Assembly (NCBI GenBank): GCA_944386295.1
Contig: CALXAO010000027.1
Coordinates: forward strand, 1-60,331
Reading direction: 5' to 3'
Source: an uncultured Clostridia bacterium
GTDB taxonomy: Bacteria > Bacillota > Clostridia > Oscillospirales > UBA644
Length of the DNA stretch: 60,331 nt
Below, in pieces: positions 81 through 12,696 of the stretch. The notes beneath the pieces are model-generated. The model worked only from the letters and a program-made list of their open reading frames with translations, was not told the DNA's origin and ran no database searches. The stretch's first letter is position 1, and each line of letters opens with the position of its first letter. The position numbers and the translations under genes are program-made.

Positions 81-1391
81 ATGACGTACAAGACACAAAT
101 GGAGGCAGCCAAGAAAGGAATTATTACAAAGGAAATGTCTGTGGTTGCAACAAAAGAGGGATTACCGGAAAAAAAGATCCGGGATAGTGTTGCCTGTGGG
201 GAAATTGCAATCCCTGCCAATATTCGGCATAAATCCCTTTCCCCAGAAGGAATCGGCTGTGGTCTAAAAACAAAGATCAATGTTAATCTAGGAATTTCCG
301 GTGACTGCAAAAACTACGACATAGAAATGCAAAAAGTGGATTTAGCCTTGCGCTTTGGTGCGGAAGCAATTATGGATCTAAGCAACTATGGAAAAACCAA
401 CACTTTCCGCCGGGAATTAATCCAAAAATCCACAGCTATGATTGGTACCGTGCCGATGTACGATGCCATTGGATACCTGGAAAAAGATTTGCTGGAAATT
501 CAACCGGAAGATTTTCTGCAAGTTTTGAGAGCGCATGCAGAAGAAGGGGTAGATTTCATGACTATTCACGCGGGCCTGAACCGGAAAACCGCTTCTGCCA
601 TTAAACAGGAAAAACGAAGAATGAACATTGTCTCTCGGGGTGGATCACTCCTGTTTGCCTGGATGGAAATGACGGGAAGAGAAAACCCATTTTTTGAGTA
701 TTACGATGATGTTCTTAAAATTCTGGCTGAATATGATGTGACCATTAGTTTAGGAGATGCTTTGAGACCCGGATGTATCGATGACAGCAGCGACGCCGGG
801 CAAATCGGAGAACTGATTGAATTGGGAAATTTAACAAAACGCGCCTGGGAACAAAATGTTCAAGTGATGGTGGAAGGCCCCGGACATATGGCCATTAACG
901 AAATCGAAGCCAATATGCGTCTGGAAAAAAGGCTTTGTCACAACGCTCCTTTTTATGTTCTTGGTCCGTTAGTAACTGACATTGCCCCAGGATATGACCA
1001 TATTACTTCCGCCATCGGAGGAGCCATTGCCGCAGCTTCAGGTGCAGATTTCCTGTGTTATGTCACGCCTGCTGAACATCTGCGGCTACCGAACCTGAAC
1101 GACGTCAAGGAAGGTATTGTGGCCTCTAAAATTGCAGCGCATGCGGCTGATATTGCAAAGGGCATTCCGGGAGCCAGAGAATGGGACAACAAGATGTCCG
1201 ATGCACGTCATGCCACCGATTGGGAAGAAATGTTCCGACTGGCCATTGACGGAGAAAAAGCAAAAGCCTATTTTGAGAGTACACCACCGGAAGACCGGCA
1301 TACCTGTTCCATGTGCGGCAAAATGTGCGCGGTGCGTACCACCAACCGTATTTTGGAAGGAAAAACCGTTGAATTCCGTCGGGAAAAATAA
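81..1391 (+). CDS. thiC: Phosphomethylpyrimidine synthase ThiC
   Basis: ThiC is a radical SAM enzyme that rearranges the purine intermediate AIR into HMP-phosphate, the pyrimidine half of thiamine. The product is 436 aa, the usual length for clostridial ThiC without the extra N-terminal domain of the E. coli enzyme. The C-terminal cluster motif is CSMCGKMC with cysteines at 409, 412 and 416, which binds the [4Fe-4S] cluster. The ATG at 81 follows GGAGGGG at 70-76. It is the first gene of a tight operon with thiM, thiE, a HAD phosphatase and thiD, and the operon is probably controlled through its leader. Confidence 0.97.
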
Positions 1392-1409
1392 TCTTGGAGG
1401 TCTAATACT

Positions 1410-2231
1410 ATGCTTAAAGAAATGCTGGACAATGTCCGTGCTACTACTCCCCTGATTCATAACATTACCAACTATGTTACCGTCAATGACTGTGCAAATA
1501 CCTTGCTGGCCTGCGGCGGCGCACCCATTATGTCAGATGACCGGGAAGAAGTCGAGGAAATTACCTCGATCTGTGGAGGATTGAATATCAATATCGGCAC
1601 ACTTAACGGCAATACAATTCCATCTATGTTTCTGGCCGGGAAAAAAGCCAATGAGTTGTCCCACCCGGTACTGTTAGACCCAGTCGGTGCAGGTGCTTCT
1701 TCCCTCCGGACCCGGACTGCATGCAAATTAATGGATGAAATTCATTTCACAGCCATCCGGGGAAATATTTCAGAAATCAAAACACTGGCGCTAGGCAGTG
1801 GATCCACCAAAGGTGTCGATGCAGACGTTGCTGATGTCATTACTCGAGAAAATATCAAAGATGGCGTAAGATTCGCAAAAGAACTTTCAGCCAAAACGAA
1901 TGCGGTCGTAGCCATTACTGGCGCAATCGATATTGTAGCAAACAGCTCTACCGCCTATGCCATTTATAACGGACACCCCATCCTAAGCAAGATCACAGGC
2001 TCAGGCTGTATGCTCTCCGCCATGACGACAGCTTATCTGACCGCCAATCCCACACAGCCCCTGACCGCAGTATTGGCAGCTGTTTGTGCTATGGGCCTTT
2101 GCGGAGAGCTGGCATTTGCACATCTTGGTGCCCAAGAAGGCAATTCCACATTTCGTAATAAACTGATCGACCAGATTTATTGTCTTACAGGGGATTTGTT
2201 GGAAAGCGGTGCTAGATATGAACTTCAATAA
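1410..2231 (+). CDS. thiM: Hydroxyethylthiazole kinase ThiM
   Basis: ThiM phosphorylates 4-methyl-5-hydroxyethylthiazole, so it salvages the thiazole half of thiamine. The 273 aa product has the family signatures VTVNDCANTLLACGGAPIMS near the N-terminus and TGSGCMLSA near residue 198, which carries the active-site cysteine region. The ATG follows a GGAGG at about 1396. It starts 18 bases after thiC and overlaps thiE. No thiazole synthase gene (thiG, thiS, thiF, thiH) is present in the window, so this operon pairs de novo pyrimidine synthesis with thiazole salvage; thiG could lie elsewhere. Confidence 0.96.
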   Translation: MLKEMLDNVRATTPLIHNITNYVTVNDCANTLLACGGAPIMSDDREEVEEITSICGGLNINIGTLNGNTIPSMFLAGKKANELSHPVLLDPVGAGASSLRTRTACKLMDEIHFTAIRGNISEIKTLALGSGSTKGVDADVADVITRENIKDGVRFAKELSAKTNAVVAITGAIDIVANSSTAYAIYNGHPILSKITGSGCMLSAMTTAYLTANPTQPLTAVLAAVCAMGLCGELAFAHLGAQEGNSTFRNKLIDQIYCLTGDLLESGARYELQ

Positions 2232-2859
2232 GGAATTTCTACGGCTGTATGCTGTAACCGACCGCGCATGGACAGGCACTCTTTCACTGAAAGAGCAAAT
2301 AGAACAAGCTCTAAAAGGAGGTGTTACCTGTGTTCAGTTGCGAGAAAAAGAACTCTCTTTGACCGAATTCGCCAAAGAAGCGGCAGAAATTCAAGCGCTT
2401 TGCAGAAGATATAACACGCCGTTTCTAATCAATGACAATGTGGAATTGGCGGTCGCCTGCAATGCAGATGGGGTACATGTAGGCCAATCAGATATGGCGG
2501 CTGGCGCAGTGCGAAAAAAAATTGGCCGTGAAAAAATTCTGGGCGTATCGGTCCAAACTCTCCAGCAGGCAATTGCCGCACAACAACAGGGCGCGGATTA
2601 TTTAGGAGTCGGCGCAGTGTTCACAACCGCTACAAAACTGGATGCAGACTTCGTTTCACTGACAACACTACAGGAAATCTGCCGTACAGTTACCATCCCC
2701 GTAGTGGCAATCGGAGGAATTAACCGATCCAACCTGCTTCAATTGTCCGAAACAGGAATCGAGGGTGTCGCCCTGGTTTCCGCTATTTTTGCCAGCACTA
2801 ATATTACACAGGAATGTGGGGAATTGATGGGCTTAGTAAAACAGGCGGTGGGGAAATGA
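2218..2859 (+). CDS. thiE: Thiamine-phosphate synthase ThiE
   Basis: ThiE couples HMP-pyrophosphate and thiazole phosphate to thiamine phosphate. The TIM-barrel motifs are visible: LREKELS, INDNVELA, DGVHVGQSDM, VGAVFTTATK and VAIGGI. I place the start at ATG 2218, eleven bases after GGAAAG (2201-2206); a GTG at 2209 in the same frame is an alternative that adds three residues. The start overlaps the end of thiM and the TGA stop overlaps the ATG of the next gene (ATGA at 2856), so translation is probably coupled. Confidence 0.95.
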   Translation: MNFNKEFLRLYAVTDRAWTGTLSLKEQIEQALKGGVTCVQLREKELSLTEFAKEAAEIQALCRRYNTPFLINDNVELAVACNADGVHVGQSDMAAGAVRKKIGREKILGVSVQTLQQAIAAQQQGADYLGVGAVFTTATKLDADFVSLTTLQEICRTVTIPVVAIGGINRSNLLQLSETGIEGVALVSAIFASTNITQECGELMGLVKQAVGK

Positions 2860-3515
2860 TTCCTGCCGGAATTATTTTTGACCTAGACGGAACTCTGCTG
2901 GATTCCATGCCCCATTGGGAACACTTAGGTGAAGATTACCTGCGACATCAGCAAATAGAACCGGAACCAGGACTAAACGAAATTCTTAGATCTTTAAGCT
3001 TATTGCAAGCCGCAGATTATTTTCGGAACCGTTACGGAATCCAGAAGTCAGCAAAAACAATTTTAGAAGAAATCCGCATGCAGATTGCCGATTTTTACCA
3101 ACGGCAAGCAAAACTGAAGCCGCAAGCCGACACATTTGTCCGAAAGATCCGCGCAATGGGAATTCCCTGTTGTCTAGCGACAGCCACAGAATTTTCCCTG
3201 GCACAGGCAGCGCTGGAAAGAACCGGGATTCTTTCCCTTTTTCAGGGAATTTTAACTTGCACGCAAGTTGGAAGCGGAAAAGAAAACCCAGAAATTTTTC
3301 ATGCAGCCAGAGCCGTTCTGAAAACGCCGCAGCAACAAACACTTGTCTTTGAAGACGCTTTGCATGCCATTCTTACAGCAAAACGGGCTGGTTATCCCGT
3401 TGCAGCAATATCAGATAAAACATCTGCTAGGGATGAAATTGAAATTCGGAAAGTTTCGGACTACTACTTTAAATCTTTTTCAGAAGCGGAGGAATTGTTT
3501 TGCATACAGTATTAA
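2856..3515 (+). CDS. HAD-superfamily hydrolase in the thiamine operon
   Basis: The product is a 219 aa haloacid-dehalogenase-type phosphatase of the beta-phosphoglucomutase-like branch. It has motif I DLDGT near residue 9, a helical cap segment, LATATE as motif II, GKENPEIF as motif III and FEDALHAI as motif IV. The ATG at 2856 overlaps the thiE stop. Its TTG-started neighbour thiD overlaps its end. The operon context suggests a phosphatase acting on a thiamine intermediate such as thiamine phosphate or HMP phosphate, but the substrate is inference only. Confidence 0.85.
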   Translation: MIPAGIIFDLDGTLLDSMPHWEHLGEDYLRHQQIEPEPGLNEILRSLSLLQAADYFRNRYGIQKSAKTILEEIRMQIADFYQRQAKLKPQADTFVRKIRAMGIPCCLATATEFSLAQAALERTGILSLFQGILTCTQVGSGKENPEIFHAARAVLKTPQQQTLVFEDALHAILTAKRAGYPVAAISDKTSARDEIEIRKVSDYYFKSFSEAEELFCIQY

Positions 3516-4285
3516 CTATCGCCGGCTCGGACTGTAGTGGAGGCGCCGGTATTCAGGCAGATATCAAAACCATTTCTGCGCATAAAATGTACGCAGAAAG
3601 TGTAATTACCGCAATGACTGCACAGAATACAACCGGTGTTTTCGGTATTCAGGAAGCAAATCCAGATTTTGTCTCTTTACAAATGGATTGCGTATTCCAG
3701 GACATCCCACCGGATGCAGTCAAAATTGGTATGGTTTCCAATCCGGACATTATCCGTACTATTGCCCGAAAACTTCAGGAATATCAGGCAAAAAATATTG
3801 TTCTGGATCCAGTAATGGTCTCTACCAGCGGAAATCGACTATTATCTGAAAATGCGGAAGAGACGTTACAGGAATTTCTGTTTCCGCTAGCAGATATCCT
3901 CACACCGAACCTTCCGGAGGCCGAAGTTCTCTGCAAATTTGAAATTAGGGGAGAATCAGAAATGCAAGCGGCGGCGGCAGCTATCAGCCTTTTTGTCCGC
4001 GGAGCGGTTCTCATCAAGGGAGGTCATGGCATAGCCGATGCGGCTGACCTGTTATGGGATGGGGAAAAAACATCTTGGTTTCGCGCCCCAAGAATCCAGA
4101 CAGAAAATACCCACGGAACCGGCTGCACCCTCTCCTCCGCTATTGCTTGCGGACTTGCTGCCGGACTTTCCCTGCATGAAAGTGTGCAACAGGCTAAGGA
4201 ATACCTAACTGGGGCATTGGCGGACGGGTTAAACCTAGGAAAAGGAAAAGGTCCGATCAATCATTTGTACCGCATCCCAGAATAA
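3500..4285 (+). CDS. thiD: HMP/HMP-phosphate kinase ThiD
   Basis: ThiD phosphorylates HMP and HMP-phosphate to HMP pyrophosphate for ThiE. The 261 aa product has the ribokinase-fold signatures TIAGSDCSGGAGIQADIK at the N-terminus and THGTGCTLSSAIA near the C-terminus. The start is TTG at 3500, chosen because ThiD proteins begin just before TIAGSD and because GGAGG lies at 3488-3492. It overlaps the HAD gene by 16 bases. No clear intrinsic terminator follows; the next sequence is a decayed MATE gene on the same strand. Confidence 0.95.
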   Translation: MHTVLTIAGSDCSGGAGIQADIKTISAHKMYAESVITAMTAQNTTGVFGIQEANPDFVSLQMDCVFQDIPPDAVKIGMVSNPDIIRTIARKLQEYQAKNIVLDPVMVSTSGNRLLSENAEETLQEFLFPLADILTPNLPEAEVLCKFEIRGESEMQAAAAAISLFVRGAVLIKGGHGIADAADLLWDGEKTSWFRAPRIQTENTHGTGCTLSSAIACGLAAGLSLHESVQQAKEYLTGALADGLNLGKGKGPINHLYRIPE

Positions 4286-4994: not shown

Positions 4995-6149
4995 ATGATA
5001 GGGAAGGAATCTGAATTTCCACTTCTTTCCCACAGGCCGAAGAACGGCAAATTCCATCGATAATCGCCTGATTGTAAAGAATTTCAGAAGTTGGCACAGG
5101 TGCTGTACCGTTAGACTAAACAGCAGTAATAAAAGACCGCAGTTTCCGATAAAACAACCCTTTCCCTACCGGCGGTGCCGGTAGGAGAGGAATCTGGTAA
5201 GATACCGAGCGCCCAGCTGTCTGTTTATATACAGTCAATGGCTTGTCAAATTCTCCGTTCCAACAATCAGTTGAGGGAATCCTCAGGCCGCCTTCAGTTC
5301 CCAGAATCAAAGCGTCGCCGCTGGTATCCATATGCATAGCCCAAGAAATCCGAAAATCCAGAATAATTCCGCCCTCCAGACGCACAAATGCGGCGGCAAA
5401 ATCATCTACACTGAAAGCTTTGGCATATTCCGGATGCTCCGGATAATACGCAGGATCTTTTCCAAAATAATCAGACATATATCCGGTCACTAGCCTACCG
5501 CTTTCAAAAGCATGTCAATAGAATAAGCACCGATATCGCCTACCGCCCCTACACCACCAGTATCTTTTTGAATAAAACTAGTCCCATGAGATGCAGGAAT
5601 ACCTCTCCGGCGCCCTCCGCCAGCCTGGAGGTAATATACCTTACCTAATTCACCGGAATCCACAATTTTTTGAATCATTTGCATATTTTCGCTCATCCGG
5701 GGTTGAAAACCAAACGTCAGAATCTTACCACTCTTTTTTTCCGTTTTCATTACCCGAATTGCTTCGTCCAGTGTTACGGTAAAAGGTTTTTCCAGCATTA
5801 CATGAATGCCATGTTCCAAGGCATAAATAGCAGGTTCCGCATGCTGTACGTTATAAGTGCAAATACTGACCGCGTCTAAGTCGGGTTCACTGTCAATCAG
5901 TTCCTTATGATTCCGATAACAACGGGCCCTCTCTACCCCAAACCGGCGGAAAAATGCTTCGGCTTTTCCCGGAATCAAATCTGCACCGGCAATCACTTCA
6001 ACATCTTCCATTTTCAAATATTCCCGGATATGGGCGCCTGCAATTCCGCCGGTTCCAATAATTCCAACCCGAATTTTTCGTTTGCTAGACACAGATTCCT
6101 GGCAAGCACAGTCTTCAGAAAAACGGTCTAACAATAAATCATGACCAAT
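4993..6149 (-). pseudogene. Broken Gfo/Idh/MocA-family dehydrogenase, tandem copy
   Basis: This is a degenerate tandem copy of the intact gene at 6157-7323. The Rossmann fold segment VGIIGTGGIAGAHIREYL and the EKPFTVTLDEA motif are preserved, and most aligned residues match the intact copy. Three lesions break it. About 16 bases are lost near 5488-5492 compared with the intact copy (the YPKPLT codons), causing a frameshift. A TAG replaces a glutamine codon near 5116-5118. The expected ATG at the N-terminus is absent (ATT or GGT at that place). The tail resumes in frame to a stop at 4993. It is presumably non-functional. Confidence 0.9.
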
Positions 6150-6156
6150 ACCTCTC

Positions 6157-7323
6157 TTATATTTCGGGAATGGTAATCTCAACTTCCTTACCGCAGGCCG
6201 CAGAACGGCAGATTCCATCAATAATCGCCTGGTTATAAACAATTTCCGAAGAAGGTACTGTAGCTTTTCCGCCAATTTGTACAGCATCAATAAAGGAACG
6301 AAGCTTCCGATAGAACAGACCATCTTCAGCATTGGGCGGCGGAAGAAGAGGAACCTGATAAGATACAGAGCGTCCAGCAACCTGCTTGTAAACCGTTAGA
6401 GGTTTATTGAACTCCCCATTCCAACAATCAGTCGAGGGAATCCGAAGTCCGCCCTTGGTACCGAGAATCAAAGCATCCCCGCAGGTATCCATATTCATTG
6501 CCCAGGAAATTCGGAAATCCAAAACAATCCCGCCTTCCAGACGCACAAATGCAGCGGCAAAATCATCTACCCCAAACACGCTGGCATATTCCGGATGATT
6601 GGGATAGTACGCAGGATCTTTCCCAAAGTAATCAGATGTATAACCAGTCACGGTCAGCGGCTTCGGGTAACCCACTGCTTTCAAAAGCATATCCAAGGAA
6701 TATGCGCCAATATCGCCCACGGCACCTACACCGCCAGTATCCTTCTGAATAAAGGTGGTTCCATATGGAGTAGGAATTCCTCTCCGGCGACCACCGCCAG
6801 CCTGGAGGTAATACACCTTACCTAATTCACCGGAATCCACAATTTTCTGAATCATCTGCATATTTTCGCTCATCCGGGGTTGAAAACCGATGGTAAGGAT
6901 TTTTCCGCTTTTCTTTTCAGCTTTCATTACTTGAATGGCTTCGTCCAATGTCACCGTAAACGGTTTTTCTAACATTACATTGATGCCATGTTCCAATGCA
7001 TAAATCGCCGGTCCCGCATGCTGGGTATTATACGTACAAATACTTACAGCATCCAAATCTTTTTCTGAATCAATCATTTCCTTGTGACTAGGATAGCACC
7101 GAACGCCTTCCACACCATAGGTCCGAAAAAATTCTTCCGCCTTTCCAGGCACAAGATCTGCACCAGCCACAATTTCAACATCGTCCATTTTCAGATATTC
7201 ATGAATATGAGCTTGGGCAATCCACCCGGTTCCAATAATTCCAACCTTAATTTTCCGTTTGCCTACCTCTCCTTTGGACACGGTCAGGTCTTTAGTAAAA
7301 TTATCCAATATGCTATCTGACAT
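6157..7323 (-). CDS. Gfo/Idh/MocA-family NAD(P)-dependent dehydrogenase
   Basis: The 388 aa product is a sugar or inositol-type oxidoreductase of the cytoplasm. It has the nucleotide-binding stretch VGIIGTGWIAQAHIHEYL after about 25 residues, the conserved EKPFTVTLDEA that carries the catalytic-site lysine, and a GFQPRMSENMQ segment. The ATG at 7323 follows AAGGAGTG; an upstream in-frame extension lacks a ribosome-binding site. It lies just downstream of a sugar phosphate isomerase broken by a stop codon and upstream of its own decayed duplicate. The substrate is unknown; a polyol or modified hexose is plausible. Confidence 0.92.
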   Translation of the reverse strand: MSDSILDNFTKDLTVSKGEVGKRKIKVGIIGTGWIAQAHIHEYLKMDDVEIVAGADLVPGKAEEFFRTYGVEGVRCYPSHKEMIDSEKDLDAVSICTYNTQHAGPAIYALEHGINVMLEKPFTVTLDEAIQVMKAEKKSGKILTIGFQPRMSENMQMIQKIVDSGELGKVYYLQAGGGRRRGIPTPYGTTFIQKDTGGVGAVGDIGAYSLDMLLKAVGYPKPLTVTGYTSDYFGKDPAYYPNHPEYASVFGVDDFAAAFVRLEGGIVLDFRISWAMNMDTCGDALILGTKGGLRIPSTDCWNGEFNKPLTVYKQVAGRSVSYQVPLLPPPNAEDGLFYRKLRSFIDAVQIGGKATVPSSEIVYNQAIIDGICRSAACGKEVEITIPEI

Positions 7324-7343
7324 AGTAAATAGTACACTCCTTT

Positions 7344-8165
7344 TTATTGAATTGTTTTCAAATACTGAATACTTGCTTCTGCGCATTCCAGTGGTGTCTT
7401 TCCCATACTTGGGTTGTCCTGTTCTACAACAACCCAACGAGTGCCGCACTCGCTGCAGGCTTGGAGAATCCTAGGAAAATCCTGACAGCCGCTACCTACA
7501 GGTCGCAGGCAAAATGCCTTGGTCTCATCCGCAGCATCAGACATTCCATCGTGAATTCCAATCAAAGCATACATCTATTCCGACTTACTTCCCACATAAT
7601 CTTTCAGATGGACCACTGGGACTCTTCCGCTGTATTTCCGGATATAGGAAGCCGGATCTTCGCCGCCAACCCGCACCCAGCAGGTATCCAGCTGCGTTTT
7701 CAGCAATGACTCTGGCACTTCCCGGTACAGAATGTCCAGCGCATATTCACCGTCTACCTTCTGGAATTCAAAATCATGATTATGGTACAACAGTGTAAGC
7801 CCTATACGGTTGGCTACTGCTCCTAAAACTTTGGCCCCTTCAATCACTTCGCCAAACCGGGGGGCGCCAGGGCGGTACTCTTCCGTCAAATAAGGAATTG
7901 CAATATATTCACAACCCAGATCCCGGTATTCCCTTAGTATCTCTTCTGGATTCTGCATCATGGAAACAAAGGGAACATGCGCAGAAATTGGAACCAATCC
8001 GACTTCCGAACACATCCGACGGACTGCCTCCGATGAATGACCGAATAGGCCGGCAAATTCTACACCGTCATAGCCCATAGCACGAACTTTCTTCAGCGTA
8101 CCGGCAAAGTCCGCCGCAAGATCATCCCGTACGGAATACAATTGCAAAGCAATGGGAAAATTCAT
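7344..8165 (-). pseudogene. Sugar phosphate isomerase/epimerase interrupted by TAG
   Basis: The two parts together form one TIM-barrel protein of the xylose-isomerase-like (AP endonuclease 2) family, about 273 aa. The first part runs from ATG 8165 (after GAGGTGG) to a TAG at 7577-7575, just after VVHLKDYVGSKSE. The second part continues in the same frame with an ATG directly after the TAG and holds the typical tail LRPVGSG and WVVVEQDNPSMGKTP. The active-site region LLYHNHDFEF is in the first part. A nonsense mutation is the simplest reading; re-initiation at the adjoining ATG could still yield two fragments. Confidence 0.85.
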
Positions 8166-8197
8166 AGATTTATCCACCTCTGTTCATAATTAATTAC

Positions 8198-8230
8198 TTG
8201 TATTATAAGACAAAATATGATATAATGCAA
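8198..8230. promoter_or_regulatory. Symmetric overlapping divergent promoters
   Basis: On the plus strand TTGTAT (8198-8203), 17 bases, then TATAAT (8221-8226) forms the AraC gene promoter. On the minus strand TTGCAT (8230-8225), 17 bases, then TATAAT (8207-8202) forms the isomerase-dehydrogenase promoter. Each -10 box overlaps the -35 box of the other. The arms TTGTATTATA and TATAATGCAA are inverted repeats with one mismatch. Confidence 0.75.
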
Positions 8231-8287
8231 GACATAAACCGTTTTTTAAAAGACAAATATTGCTCAAATTTAAGTGAGGAATTATTG

Positions 8288-9088
8288 ATGCAAGCTTTTT
8301 ACGAAAACAGAACCCTTCCTCTTTTTATCGAACGCAGCCATAGGCTCAATTGCGGTCCTCATTTGCACAATCACATCGAAATGATTTATATGTTGCAAGG
8401 AAAAACCCTAGCGGGCTGTGACGAAGAAGAATATGTAATTCGCTCCGGGGATATATATATTGCCTTTCCCAATCAAATTCATTGGTTCAAAACCACCGAA
8501 TGGGAAGACTATTATATTTATATTTTTTCACCAGACTTCTGTCCTGAATTCCGGGATATGTTTCAGTCTCAAATTCCTTGCAGTGCCGTAAACAGTACAA
8601 TAGCCTGTTCACCAGAACTTCCAACACTGCTCAAGAATCTATACAAAGAAAAACATAAACCGACCGATCCTTTTCAGGAAGCACGTTTGCGCGGTTATTT
8701 TCTTGCTGCGTTAGGAGAACTGTTCTCCGGAATTTCCTTTCAGCCCACACGCGCCGCTGATGGAAATATTCTGAAAAGTATCCTGAACTACTGTGACCAA
8801 AATTACACAGAGGAGCTGTCACTAAAAACCCTTTCACAGGCACTAAACGTCGGTAAATATTATATTTCCCATGTGTTTAACGAAAAACTTCACATCAGCT
8901 TTAATAATTACATTAACGACCGGAGAATTAGTCAGGCAATCCTTCAAATGAAAACTTTTCCGGAAAAATCAGTTACTGAAATCGCTTATGATGTAGGATT
9001 TAACAATACTCGAACCTTTAATCGGGCCTTTCTGAAATATGCTGGCTGTTCCCCCCGGGAGTTCCGGAAACTCCGGCAGAACCGATGA
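8288..9088 (+). CDS. AraC-family transcriptional regulator
   Basis: The 266 aa product has an N-terminal cupin-like sensor domain (HLHNHIEMIYMLQG, with PNQIHWF) and a C-terminal pair of helix-turn-helix motifs (LSLKTLSQALNVGKYYISHV; VTEIAYDVGFNNTRTFNRAF). An open frame reaches back to TTG 8198 and ATG 8225, but both lie inside the promoter, upstream of the expected transcription start near 8233. ATG 8288 follows GAGGA (8276-8280) at good spacing and is the likely start. It is divergent from the isomerase and dehydrogenase genes and probably regulates them in response to their sugar. It converges with the next gene with a gap of only 7 bases. Confidence 0.9.
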   Translation: MQAFYENRTLPLFIERSHRLNCGPHLHNHIEMIYMLQGKTLAGCDEEEYVIRSGDIYIAFPNQIHWFKTTEWEDYYIYIFSPDFCPEFRDMFQSQIPCSAVNSTIACSPELPTLLKNLYKEKHKPTDPFQEARLRGYFLAALGELFSGISFQPTRAADGNILKSILNYCDQNYTEELSLKTLSQALNVGKYYISHVFNEKLHISFNNYINDRRISQAILQMKTFPEKSVTEIAYDVGFNNTRTFNRAFLKYAGCSPREFRKLRQNR

Positions 9089-10653: not shown

Positions 10654-11541
10654 TTACCGTGTCTTTGCTGTGATTCCGTTGCGGTACTCCCGGGGTGACA
10701 TCCCTTCGATTCGATGAAACACCCGGGAAAAATAATGAGGATTATTAAACTGAAGCAAGTCTGAAATTTGGGAAAAATTATATTCTCCCTCACGAATCAG
10801 TTCCTTTGCCTTTTCCATCTTCATCCGGATAAAATATTCCGAAATTGTATATCCGCACTGTGTCTGAAAGAGCCGATTCAAATAGGTCCGGCTATAGTTT
10901 AGAACGGTACAAACATCTCCCACTCGAACCGTCTGATATACATTATCTTCCAGATATTCTAAAATGGAGGCCACCAGATGATTTTCCACATAATTCCGGG
11001 AAAAGTATAGGGAAACATCTTGAGGAGATCCTTCCCGGCGCGCTAGGGAAATCAGCAGCTGTTCAAGATGGGTCCGCACCATCTGCTCTCCGCCCAAAGG
11101 CGCCTCAGGACGCAAACAAAGTTCTTTCAAATCGGGGTCATTGTCCGGAAGATAAAAGGTCTTCCGGCCTTCAGATAAAATAGAACGGATATGATAATGC
11201 AACTCAGCCGGAAGTTGTCCCCGTTTCCCATCAAACAATCCCATGGCTTTGGAATGACACACAAAGGAAACGACAAAAAAAACGGGAGAATCTTCCTTTA
11301 CCGCCGCATGCTGGTGATATTCCTCCGGTCGATGAAAGCAATATTCCCCCTCCCGGAGAGAAAACTCACCGTGTGCAGTACGTACCTGCAATTCTCCCCG
11401 GCAAACAAAAACAAATTCCCAAAAATCGTGACTCTCCGGCTCTGATTCAAACAAACCTCCAAAATCGAACTGATGAATGGTAACAATCCTACTGATTACA
11501 AAAAAATTTTCAATTTTATGTTTTATATATACAGGCCGCAT
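10654..11541 (-). CDS. AraC-family transcriptional regulator
   Basis: The 295 aa product has an N-terminal cupin domain (FWEFVFVCRGELQV, REGEYCFHRPEEYHQH) and two C-terminal helix-turn-helix motifs (VRVGDVCTVLNYSRTYLNRL; FSQISDLLQFNNPHYFSRVF). The ATG at 11541 follows AAGGAAGAG. It is only 15 bases downstream of the dehydrogenase gene, so both are co-transcribed. It is the best candidate to bind the phased boxes upstream of that gene at 12645-12696, an inference from position. Confidence 0.92.
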   Translation of the reverse strand: MRPVYIKHKIENFFVISRIVTIHQFDFGGLFESEPESHDFWEFVFVCRGELQVRTAHGEFSLREGEYCFHRPEEYHQHAAVKEDSPVFFVVSFVCHSKAMGLFDGKRGQLPAELHYHIRSILSEGRKTFYLPDNDPDLKELCLRPEAPLGGEQMVRTHLEQLLISLARREGSPQDVSLYFSRNYVENHLVASILEYLEDNVYQTVRVGDVCTVLNYSRTYLNRLFQTQCGYTISEYFIRMKMEKAKELIREGEYNFSQISDLLQFNNPHYFSRVFHRIEGMSPREYRNGITAKTR

Positions 11542-11556
11542 AGCTCTTCCTTCTGT

Positions 11557-12564
11557 TTACACCTGCAGGGTTTTCCCAGCCCGAATTGCTTCATCTGCCA
11601 ACAATGAAATTCTAAAAGCGCTGTAGGCCTCATCCAACGTCGGAGCTCCTTTTGAGCCGTTTTCAATCATGTCAATTAATGTCATTAACTGTAAATACAT
11701 TTCCTTGTATTCTCCGGGTTGATTTACAGTTTCATATTCTCCAGTTCGACTGTGATACACGGTAATTAAATTTCCTTCCTCCCGATCCCGGACACGATTA
11801 ACATTCAGTGTCAATGAAATTCTGCCCTCGGTCCCGATAAATTCCTTAATATTTTCAGAAGCTGTATTCCGACTCCAGCCAGCCTCATAGTATGCAATGC
11901 AGCCGTCGGCCAAACGTGCAGTCATCATACCGTAATTCATCCGGGGAGCATCCGGATCAATTTTCGTTCCAAAACCGCTGACTTCCACCACAGGAACGCC
12001 GGAAAGCCACTGCATCACATCGATATAATGCACTCCACAGTCTACAATCGGAGAACAATCCTCCAGCAAACGACCGTACCGGTCCCAGTTCATTGTATGA
12101 TGATTTTGAACCATCCGCATCAGACGCAACGACCCAATTATGCCTGACGCAATCATTTCTCGAATTTTTTGGTAAGCTATATTATGCCGCAAAATATGTG
12201 CGATCAAAACCTTAGACTTGGACTGTTTTGCCAATTCAAAAAAACGGCGACCGGTTTCCAAATCAGATGCAACCGGTTTCTCACAAAGAACGTGTTTACC
12301 TGCAGCAATACAATCCTGAAGAATGGATAAGTGAGAGGAAGTATAGGTAGCAATAATAACGATATCCACTTCCGGCAAAGACAAAAAAGCCCGATAATCG
12401 GTACCGGATCGTTTGGCTCCAAACTTCCGTGCCGCAACTGCAGCGGCAAGAGGATCTGCATCTACCACAGCTTCAATACAAATATTCTCCCGAAAATAAA
12501 TATCCTCCAAATGCTGTGTTCCAATATGACCACAACCAATGACTACGACCCCGTAAATTTTCAC
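11557..12564 (-). CDS. Gfo/Idh/MocA-family dehydrogenase
   Basis: The 335 aa product has the Rossmann motif VVVIGCGHIGTQHL at the N-terminus and CEKPVASDLETG as the catalytic lysine region. The start is GTG at 12564, because AGGAGA lies eight bases upstream and the protein then begins MKIYGVVVIGCG as the family expects; an open frame reaching 12669 crosses the promoter and is not used. It is only distantly related to the copies at 4993-7323. With the AraC gene behind it, it forms a sugar-responsive unit. Substrate unknown. Confidence 0.92.
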   Translation of the reverse strand: MKIYGVVVIGCGHIGTQHLEDIYFRENICIEAVVDADPLAAAVAARKFGAKRSGTDYRAFLSLPEVDIVIIATYTSSHLSILQDCIAAGKHVLCEKPVASDLETGRRFFELAKQSKSKVLIAHILRHNIAYQKIREMIASGIIGSLRLMRMVQNHHTMNWDRYGRLLEDCSPIVDCGVHYIDVMQWLSGVPVVEVSGFGTKIDPDAPRMNYGMMTARLADGCIAYYEAGWSRNTASENIKEFIGTEGRISLTLNVNRVRDREEGNLITVYHSRTGEYETVNQPGEYKEMYLQLMTLIDMIENGSKGAPTLDEAYSAFRISLLADEAIRAGKTLQV

Positions 12565-12612
12565 AATCCGTCTCTCCTGTTTTTTTATCTTTGGCAAGCC
12601 CTTGCCGATATC

Positions 12613-12641
12613 AGTATATCTGTTTTTCATCTTCTTTACAA
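12613..12641 (-). promoter_or_regulatory. Proximal promoter of the dehydrogenase-AraC operon
   Basis: On the minus strand TTGTAA (12641-12636), a 17-bp spacer and TATACT (12618-12613) form a promoter that would start near 12606. The GTG start is about 40 bases further. The weak -35 box with repeat boxes directly upstream fits activator dependence. Confidence 0.6.
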
Positions 12642-12644
12642 TGC

Positions 12645-12696
12645 ACAAATCGACTGCGAATATAGACAAATCGACAATTTAAAGTTCCTGTTCGAC
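12645..12696. repeat. Three direct boxes phased at 21 bp, probable AraC-type operator
   Basis: ACAAATCGAC occurs at 12645-12654 and again at 12666-12675. A third, weaker copy CTGTTCGAC ends at 12696. The CGAC cores lie at 12651, 12672 and 12693, exactly 21 bp or two helical turns apart. The first box ends 3 bp upstream of the proximal -35 box, as in AraC-type activation sites. Confidence 0.6.

Follow-up and report, generated by a model that had tools for sequence, protein, structure and literature searches.

How is the direction of transcription set when the promoters of a regulator gene and of its divergently oriented neighbors lie on the same short piece of DNA? The question is raised by a 60,331-nucleotide stretch from an uncultured Clostridia bacterium (contig CALXAO010000027.1; "the window" refers to this whole stretch), in which positions 8198–8230, TTGTATTATAAGACAAAATATGATATAATGCAA, carry two opposed −35/−10 sets within 33 bp, as read from the sequence. 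A first-pass annotation had described the element as a symmetric switch between a regulator gene and sugar genes. As regards the neighbors, Pfam bears this description out, identifying an AraC-family regulator on one side and sugar-type genes on the other:

8288–9088, plus strand: AraC-family regulator (cupin sensor, HTH_18), ATG at 8288 (Pfam)
7347–8165, minus strand: xylose-isomerase-like TIM barrel (sugar isomerase/epimerase), ATG at 8165 (Pfam PF01261)
6157–7449, minus strand: Gfo/Idh/MocA oxidoreductase, downstream of the isomerase (mechanical ORF bounds; Pfam)
5116–6380, minus strand: second Gfo/Idh/MocA oxidoreductase, frame broken near 5490 (mechanical ORF bounds; Pfam)

Three domains of the regulator (PF12833, PF00165, and PF02311) scored above cut-off and place it among proteins that join an AraC-type helix-turn-helix to a cupin; sugar binding is a prediction.

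Two Opposed Promoter Sets within 33 bp

The features of the element, with their occurrence in an alignment of 17 loci described below, are as follows:

8198–8203, plus strand: −35-like TTGTAT of the regulator promoter (TTG in 17/17 aligned loci)
8218–8219, plus strand: extended −10 TG on the regulator side (13/17 loci)
8221–8226, plus strand: −10 TATAAT of the regulator promoter, after a 17-bp spacer from TTGTAT
8225–8230, minus strand (reads 8230–8225): −35-like TTGCAT of the sugar-gene promoter, with a 17-bp spacer (TTG in 16/17)
8202–8207, minus strand (reads 8207–8202): −10 TATAAT of the sugar-gene promoter (variants TATAAT, TAAAAT, or TATGAT in 17/17)
8233–8234, plus strand: predicted transcription start of the regulator gene, 7–8 nt from the −10 (A8234 invariant, 17/17)
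8195, minus strand: predicted transcription start of the sugar genes, 7 nt from the −10 (minus-strand A, plus-strand T, in 14/17)

The claim that both strands carry a complete −35/−10 set holds for the two 17-bp spacers and for TATAAT, which occurs twice, and fails for the −35 sequences, each of which matches TTGACA at only three of six positions. Because the last two bases of each −35 are fixed as AT by the overlap, neither can match TTGACA fully; a simple promoter scanner that wants a match of at least 4/6 lists neither promoter. Each −10 does overlap the opposite −35, with 2 bp common to each pair, and the 10-bp arms do differ by a single base. The term near-palindrome fits these arms, which are symmetric, but not the 13-bp center that separates the two −10 boxes, which is asymmetric. 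The predicted starts lie 38–39 bp apart and would give leaders of approximately 54 nt (regulator) and 30 nt (sugar genes).

The 33-bp element at 8198–8230 was confirmed to be real, and its origin by chance is unlikely. An accidental overlap of AT-rich promoter-like words could draw on the frequency of −10-like words in AT-rich intergenic DNA and on the loose arm matches (three mismatches or fewer) present in 45 of 59 relative genomes. We rejected this explanation as extremely improbable, since it is contradicted by simulated windows, by shuffles, and by conservation. The pattern TTG-N20 followed by at least five of the six bases of TATAAT occurs at 21 places in the window, and only at the 8198–8230 element (once per strand) is it joined by the mirror −10; mirrored hits averaged 0.075 in 40 simulated windows. 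For each of the 17 loci, which come from ten families of the class, the arm score was not reached by any of 200 shuffles. A pattern extending the arms had one exact match and one match with three mismatches in the 2.39-Mb draft genome (200 contigs).

Conservation beside Regulator Genes

Homologues of the regulator were sought in 59 relatives and in 20 family, 394 order, 391 class, and 398 phylum genomes. At E ≤ 1e-40 the order yielded 17 genomes with the regulator out of 394 and the class nine out of 391 (the window's own included in both), and among the 398 phylum genomes no match at E ≤ 1e-36 was seen except the window's own gene (1/398). A protein scan of genome contigs matched three distant Bacteroidota loci, which were excluded from the analysis. 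When the DNA preceding the regulator gene was scored for both arms at 32 loci, an ungapped element that kept both −10 boxes was found upstream of 17 of the 32 homologous regulator genes, from ten families. These 17 loci, selected by an arm score of at least 17/22 and by the presence, required by eye, of a downstream box that we call H3 (see below), constitute our alignment; L044, which scored 18 and had no H3 box, was excluded.

Conservation extends without gaps over approximately 66 bp across the 17 loci, the other 16 regulators being 31%–48% identical to that of the window. Pairwise DNA identity averages 0.73 across the element and 0.81 across H3, as compared with 0.36 before and 0.30 after them. 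Because the loci were chosen by arm score and H3, the forward −10 and −35 counts and the conservation of the boxes are partly selected; the flanks and the spacer lie outside the arm score. Invariant in all 17 loci are TTG (8198–8200), A8202, T8203, T8206, and A8207 in the left part; TA (8221–8222), AT (8225–8226), C8228, G8231, and A8234 in the right part; and G8252, C8254, and A8255 in H3. Substitutions in both −10 boxes are confined to hexamer positions 3 and 4. An extended −10 TG, present on the regulator side in 13 of the 17 loci (four linked sites are without it), occurs on the sugar side in one. The first-pass annotation had proposed aligning the region in relatives: both boxes are kept in the four same-family relatives with a close regulator homologue (L002–L005) and in more distant loci, so that the refuting case it had named, in which every close relative would be missing a box, was not seen. 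In G014, the fifth genome of the genus to which these belong, no close regulator homologue was found.

The surroundings of 28 loci were read (the distant, siteless L007–L010 being absent from this reading). In every one of the 17 element-bearing loci, the side away from the regulator gene holds a long divergent ORF. Among the 11 loci without a called site, seven regulator genes are preceded by a longer open frame in the same orientation, and four (the distant L044, L048, L055, and L059) have a long divergent ORF and no full element, indicating that the design is not universal; L055 keeps an H3-like box, its left arm being absent. In the set used for the Fisher test, a divergent ORF thus accompanies 17/17 loci with the element versus 3/10 loci without it (4/11 if L044 is counted). 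A tree of the regulators required five changes of site label; it is poorly resolved, had not stabilized, and supports no particular history.

A Candidate Operator on One Side of the Element

The regulator's operator, which was absent from the first-pass annotation, likely lies beside the promoters. The candidate is a pair of boxes, CAAGWCA (8228–8234) and GMCAAAWATTGC (8252–8263), that form a 21-bp direct repeat about as conserved as the promoters themselves. In the window the putative half-sites are:

8228–8234, plus strand: half-site H2, CAAGACA, overlapping the sugar-side −35, at −33 to −39 from the predicted sugar start
8252–8263, plus strand: half-site H3, GACAAATATTGC, 21 bp from H2 (identity 0.81 versus 0.30 just beyond)
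8209–8212, plus strand: possible third half-site H1, GACA, 22 bp before H2 (weak: C in 12/17, A in 16/17)

GWCA-like boxes stand in the same register at 8231–8234 and 8252–8255 in 17/17 aligned loci, and the CAAG of H2 coincides with the TTG of the sugar-side −35. The pair spans −33 to −68 of the predicted sugar start and −5 to +31 of the predicted regulator start. The direct repeat lies on one side of the element only, and with the TG asymmetry noted above this makes the symmetry of the supposed symmetric switch only apparent; a purely symmetric switch was rejected on the TG counts. Direct repeats with a 21-bp period are described for AraC-type rhamnose regulators of Bacillales, Bacteroides, and Enterococcus in extracts of PMC3870299, and extracts of PMC8579813 interpret AraC-type sites that precede mapped Caldicellulosiruptor starts as activator sites.

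Putative Operator Sites Away from the Regulator Gene

A pattern consisting of the operator alone (both boxes, at most one mismatch) was run on 388 order genomes, a sample less biased than the 17-locus alignment. It gave 45 hits in 36 genomes, 17 exact and 28 with one mismatch. The latter are mostly attributable to chance, since the reversed pattern gave 27 hits in total. We examined 42 of the 45 hits, second hits in G386, G287, and G175 being left out, and found a sugar-side −10 in only six of the 25 one-mismatch hits examined. (The same pattern run on 22 chosen genomes gave 17 hits in 14; these overlap the 388-genome search and are uncounted.)

The 17 exact sites present a consistent picture. 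They occur in 13 genomes, all of which are among the 17 that hold the regulator at E ≤ 1e-40 (the regulator set comprised 394 genomes and the operator set 388; all 13 are in both). A sugar-side −10 (at least 5/6), which was outside the search pattern, is found at the fixed 17-bp place in 17/17, so that in every case the operator adjoins or overlaps the target −35 at a fixed distance from the −10. Judged by their N-termini, the ORFs downstream of these sites are TIM-barrel isomerase-like in 14 cases and Gfo/Idh-like in three, and Pfam confirms three isomerases (L141, L145, and L121) and three Gfo/Idh proteins (L162, L163, and L049). At the 11 regulon sites that lie apart from the regulator gene, the bases of the sugar-side −35 other than TTG are less strictly kept.

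The forward promoter accompanies the regulator gene, with one partial exception. A regulator-side −10 (at least 5/6) is present in 6/6 regulator-linked versus 1/11 unlinked exact sites (Fisher test, 6e-4) and a forward CTTG in 6/6 versus 0/11 (8e-5), values that overstate independence because the genomes are related. The lone unlinked exception, in G368, has a forward TATGAT and is without CTTG. A second pattern that included the sugar-side −10 and allowed two mismatches gave 26 hits in 22 of 197 genomes. Among the 17 of these 26 that were read, all away from the regulator gene, two stand, by eye, beside another AraC-like gene (L096, with a forward TAAAAT plus TG, and L100, with GACAAT); in the remaining 15, no forward −10 reaches 5/6.

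An example is the family f20, in which seven genomes hold the regulator at E ≤ 1e-40 (G129, G220, G290, G296, G344, G368, and G385). The element is missing from all seven regulator genes: six are preceded by an open frame in the same orientation, and that of G385 (L048) has a different divergent ORF. All seven genomes nonetheless have at least one exact operator site before an isomerase-like gene elsewhere. Operator and sugar-side −10 together thus have the appearance of an activated promoter that recurs throughout a regulon, on which the regulator's own promoter appears to be overlaid where the regulator gene is divergent.

These sites bear on an alternative reading, in which the palindromic arms are themselves the regulator's operator (an inverted CAAG...CTTG), only one promoter is real, and the second −10 is a by-product of symmetry. 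The recurrence of CAAG in the arms would fit this reading, as would the ability of AraC-family proteins, such as E. coli RhaR, to bind inverted repeats (extracts of PMC3870299) and the conservation, in 13–15 of 17 loci, of TA at 8195–8196 and a T run at 8191–8193 outside the left arm (the window itself deviates at two of the three T in 8191–8193). Against it, 10 of the 11 unlinked sites, all of which have H2, H3, and the sugar-side −10, are without both the left CTTG and the right TATAAT, a pattern more readily explained by a removable promoter than by one half of an operator, and substitutions in the −10 boxes fall only at the two hexamer positions given above. We therefore regard an operator in the arms as unlikely.

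A Proposed Composite Switch

The arrangement of the boxes is probably that of a composite switch, in which the regulator, bound at H2–H3, would activate the sugar promoter and block its own, overlaid promoter. In this model, whose starts, binding, activation, repression, inducer, and polymerase exclusion we infer from the sequence, the sugar promoter (reverse strand, −10 at 8207–8202, weak −35) would be activated by the AraC-type regulator on H2–H3, which lies just upstream of the sugar −35 and touches it, as expected of an activator position. The regulator promoter (TTGTAT-17-TATAAT plus extended TG) would overlie the sugar promoter, and because of this overlay the same bound protein would cover the regulator start region (−5 to +31) and block it. 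If both promoters work, they would be mutually exclusive for polymerase. Given the distribution of TG (13/17 versus 1/17), the unbound state should favor the regulator gene; in the absence of inducer polymerase would face forward and a little regulator would be made, and in its presence the bound regulator would shut the forward direction and recruit polymerase to the sugar genes. Extracts of PMC4207663, citing earlier work, state that polymerase holds only one of two overlapping promoters and that overlapping pairs can switch if their strengths differ and a regulator acts on them unequally.

Could both promoters instead be constitutive and weak, with the regulator acting elsewhere or only repressing both? 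By its coordinates a protein on H2 would indeed touch both promoters. However, H2–H3 occupies a typical activator position upstream of the sugar promoter in 17/17 exact sites, and the poor sugar-side −35 is what would be expected of an activator-dependent promoter. We consider constitutive promoters quite improbable and retain the composite switch as the favored model.

It is conceivable, if rather doubtful, that the element exemplifies a widespread, unnamed module of the class, in which an activated sugar promoter receives a complete opposing promoter on top of it each time the regulator gene comes to be divergent, the direction of polymerase is the switch variable, and induction is all-or-none. 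Since the module's targets differ (isomerase, Gfo/Idh, GH3, GH30, and GH120), such overlays may have arisen or disappeared on several occasions. The sites would offer a compact, naturally replicated test of whether superimposed opposed promoters make a sharper switch than separated ones, its natural arms being the 11 exact unlinked sites (of which 10 show no opposing −10 at 5/6 or better) and the six with an opposing promoter. They also provide a predicted operator and candidate targets for an AraC-type group of which no description was found in the open-licence literature searched.

Comparison with Known Systems

In the araC–araBAD system of E. coli, an AraC regulator gene diverges from sugar genes and is subject to autorepression. 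Direct-repeat half-sites about 21 bp apart touch the target −35, as here, but the promoters lie well over 100 bp apart and repression involves a DNA loop, whereas at our element the promoters are superimposed. The Tn10 tetracycline-resistance genes reportedly have overlapping divergent promoters of regulator and target. TetR represses both Tn10 promoters, whereas activation of one side is predicted here.

The suggestion that the element is more extreme than ordinary divergent promoters is not supported, there being precedent in plasmid pLS20 (extracts of PMC4207663) and, by the title of a paper, in Tn10 tet. In pLS20, a Bacillus subtilis plasmid, the promoters Pc and Pr overlap divergently and are controlled by the regulator Rco (this and the following, extracts of PMC4207663). 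At the level of sequence our element belongs to the same type: both promoter sets occupy one stretch of DNA between divergent genes, regulator and target promoters being on the same DNA, and the unequal strengths of the pLS20 promoters may have an indirect counterpart in the TG asymmetry. The Pr start precedes the Pc −35 by 6 bp, as compared with a predicted 3 bp here. Rco acts oppositely on its two promoters, as is predicted for our regulator, but it represses the target and activates, then represses, itself, whereas here activation of the target and self-repression are predicted. Finally, DNA looping takes part in the pLS20 system and not in the model proposed here, and the arms of our element are palindromic.

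Two further systems show partial likeness. In Caulobacter, driD and the activated operon CCNA_03891 share a bidirectional promoter with an activator site that overlaps the −35, as here; DriD differs in being a WYL-domain DNA-damage regulator, reported in extracts of the preprint (PMC12340889) to be without self-regulation. The bidirectional promoters of Warman et al., as summarized in extracts of PMC10268837, have starts 7–25 bp apart, mostly 18, and overlapping −10 boxes, and their symmetry lets polymerase start both ways. Our element shares the symmetry and falls outside the 18-bp class, its predicted starts being 38–39 bp apart, its −10 boxes 13 bp apart, and each −10 overlapping the opposite −35 rather than the other −10. 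Overlapping divergent promoters are thus already known; what appears to be new is the conserved AraC-type variant. In the open-licence literature searched, no AraC-type operator was found described together with two completely superimposed promoters of this kind, most subscription papers lying outside this coverage.

The Sugar Genes and Their Surroundings

The divergent genes of three distant loci encode, by Pfam, glycoside hydrolases of the GH3 (L056), GH30 (L060), and GH120 types (L064); that of L065 had no Pfam match. The three targets hint at plant-polysaccharide sugars, for example xylan products.

In the window the isomerase gene contains an in-frame TAG (7577–7575, minus strand) where eight relatives have N (six), K (one), or R (one) and the frame continues, as would be seen in a pseudogene or as the result of a sequencing error. 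TAG as a sense codon was considered and dropped: the aligned residues are these N, K, and R, and TAG ends five of the 45 window ORFs of at least 180 codons, two of the five being the broken genes themselves. The second Gfo/Idh gene (5116–6380) is a near copy of 6157–7449, with a TAG at 5116–5118 opposite a Q of the copy. With the isomerase interrupted and the second oxidoreductase frame-broken, the target operon may be decaying or misassembled here.

Elsewhere in the window, a second AraC-family regulator (Pfam; 10654–12669, minus strand) lies directly behind an ORF that is Gfo/Idh-like by eye, on the same strand; the region is possibly a second local sugar cassette. At 81–4285 (plus strand) are ORFs that by eye resemble thiamine-synthesis genes (thiC, thiM, thiE, a HAD phosphatase, and thiD). 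Finally, the same two-arm layout, with one mismatch, was observed in relatives at L091 (G005:C1:13167-13201), L092 (G002:C24:13496-13530), and L069 (G032:C117:10814-10848).
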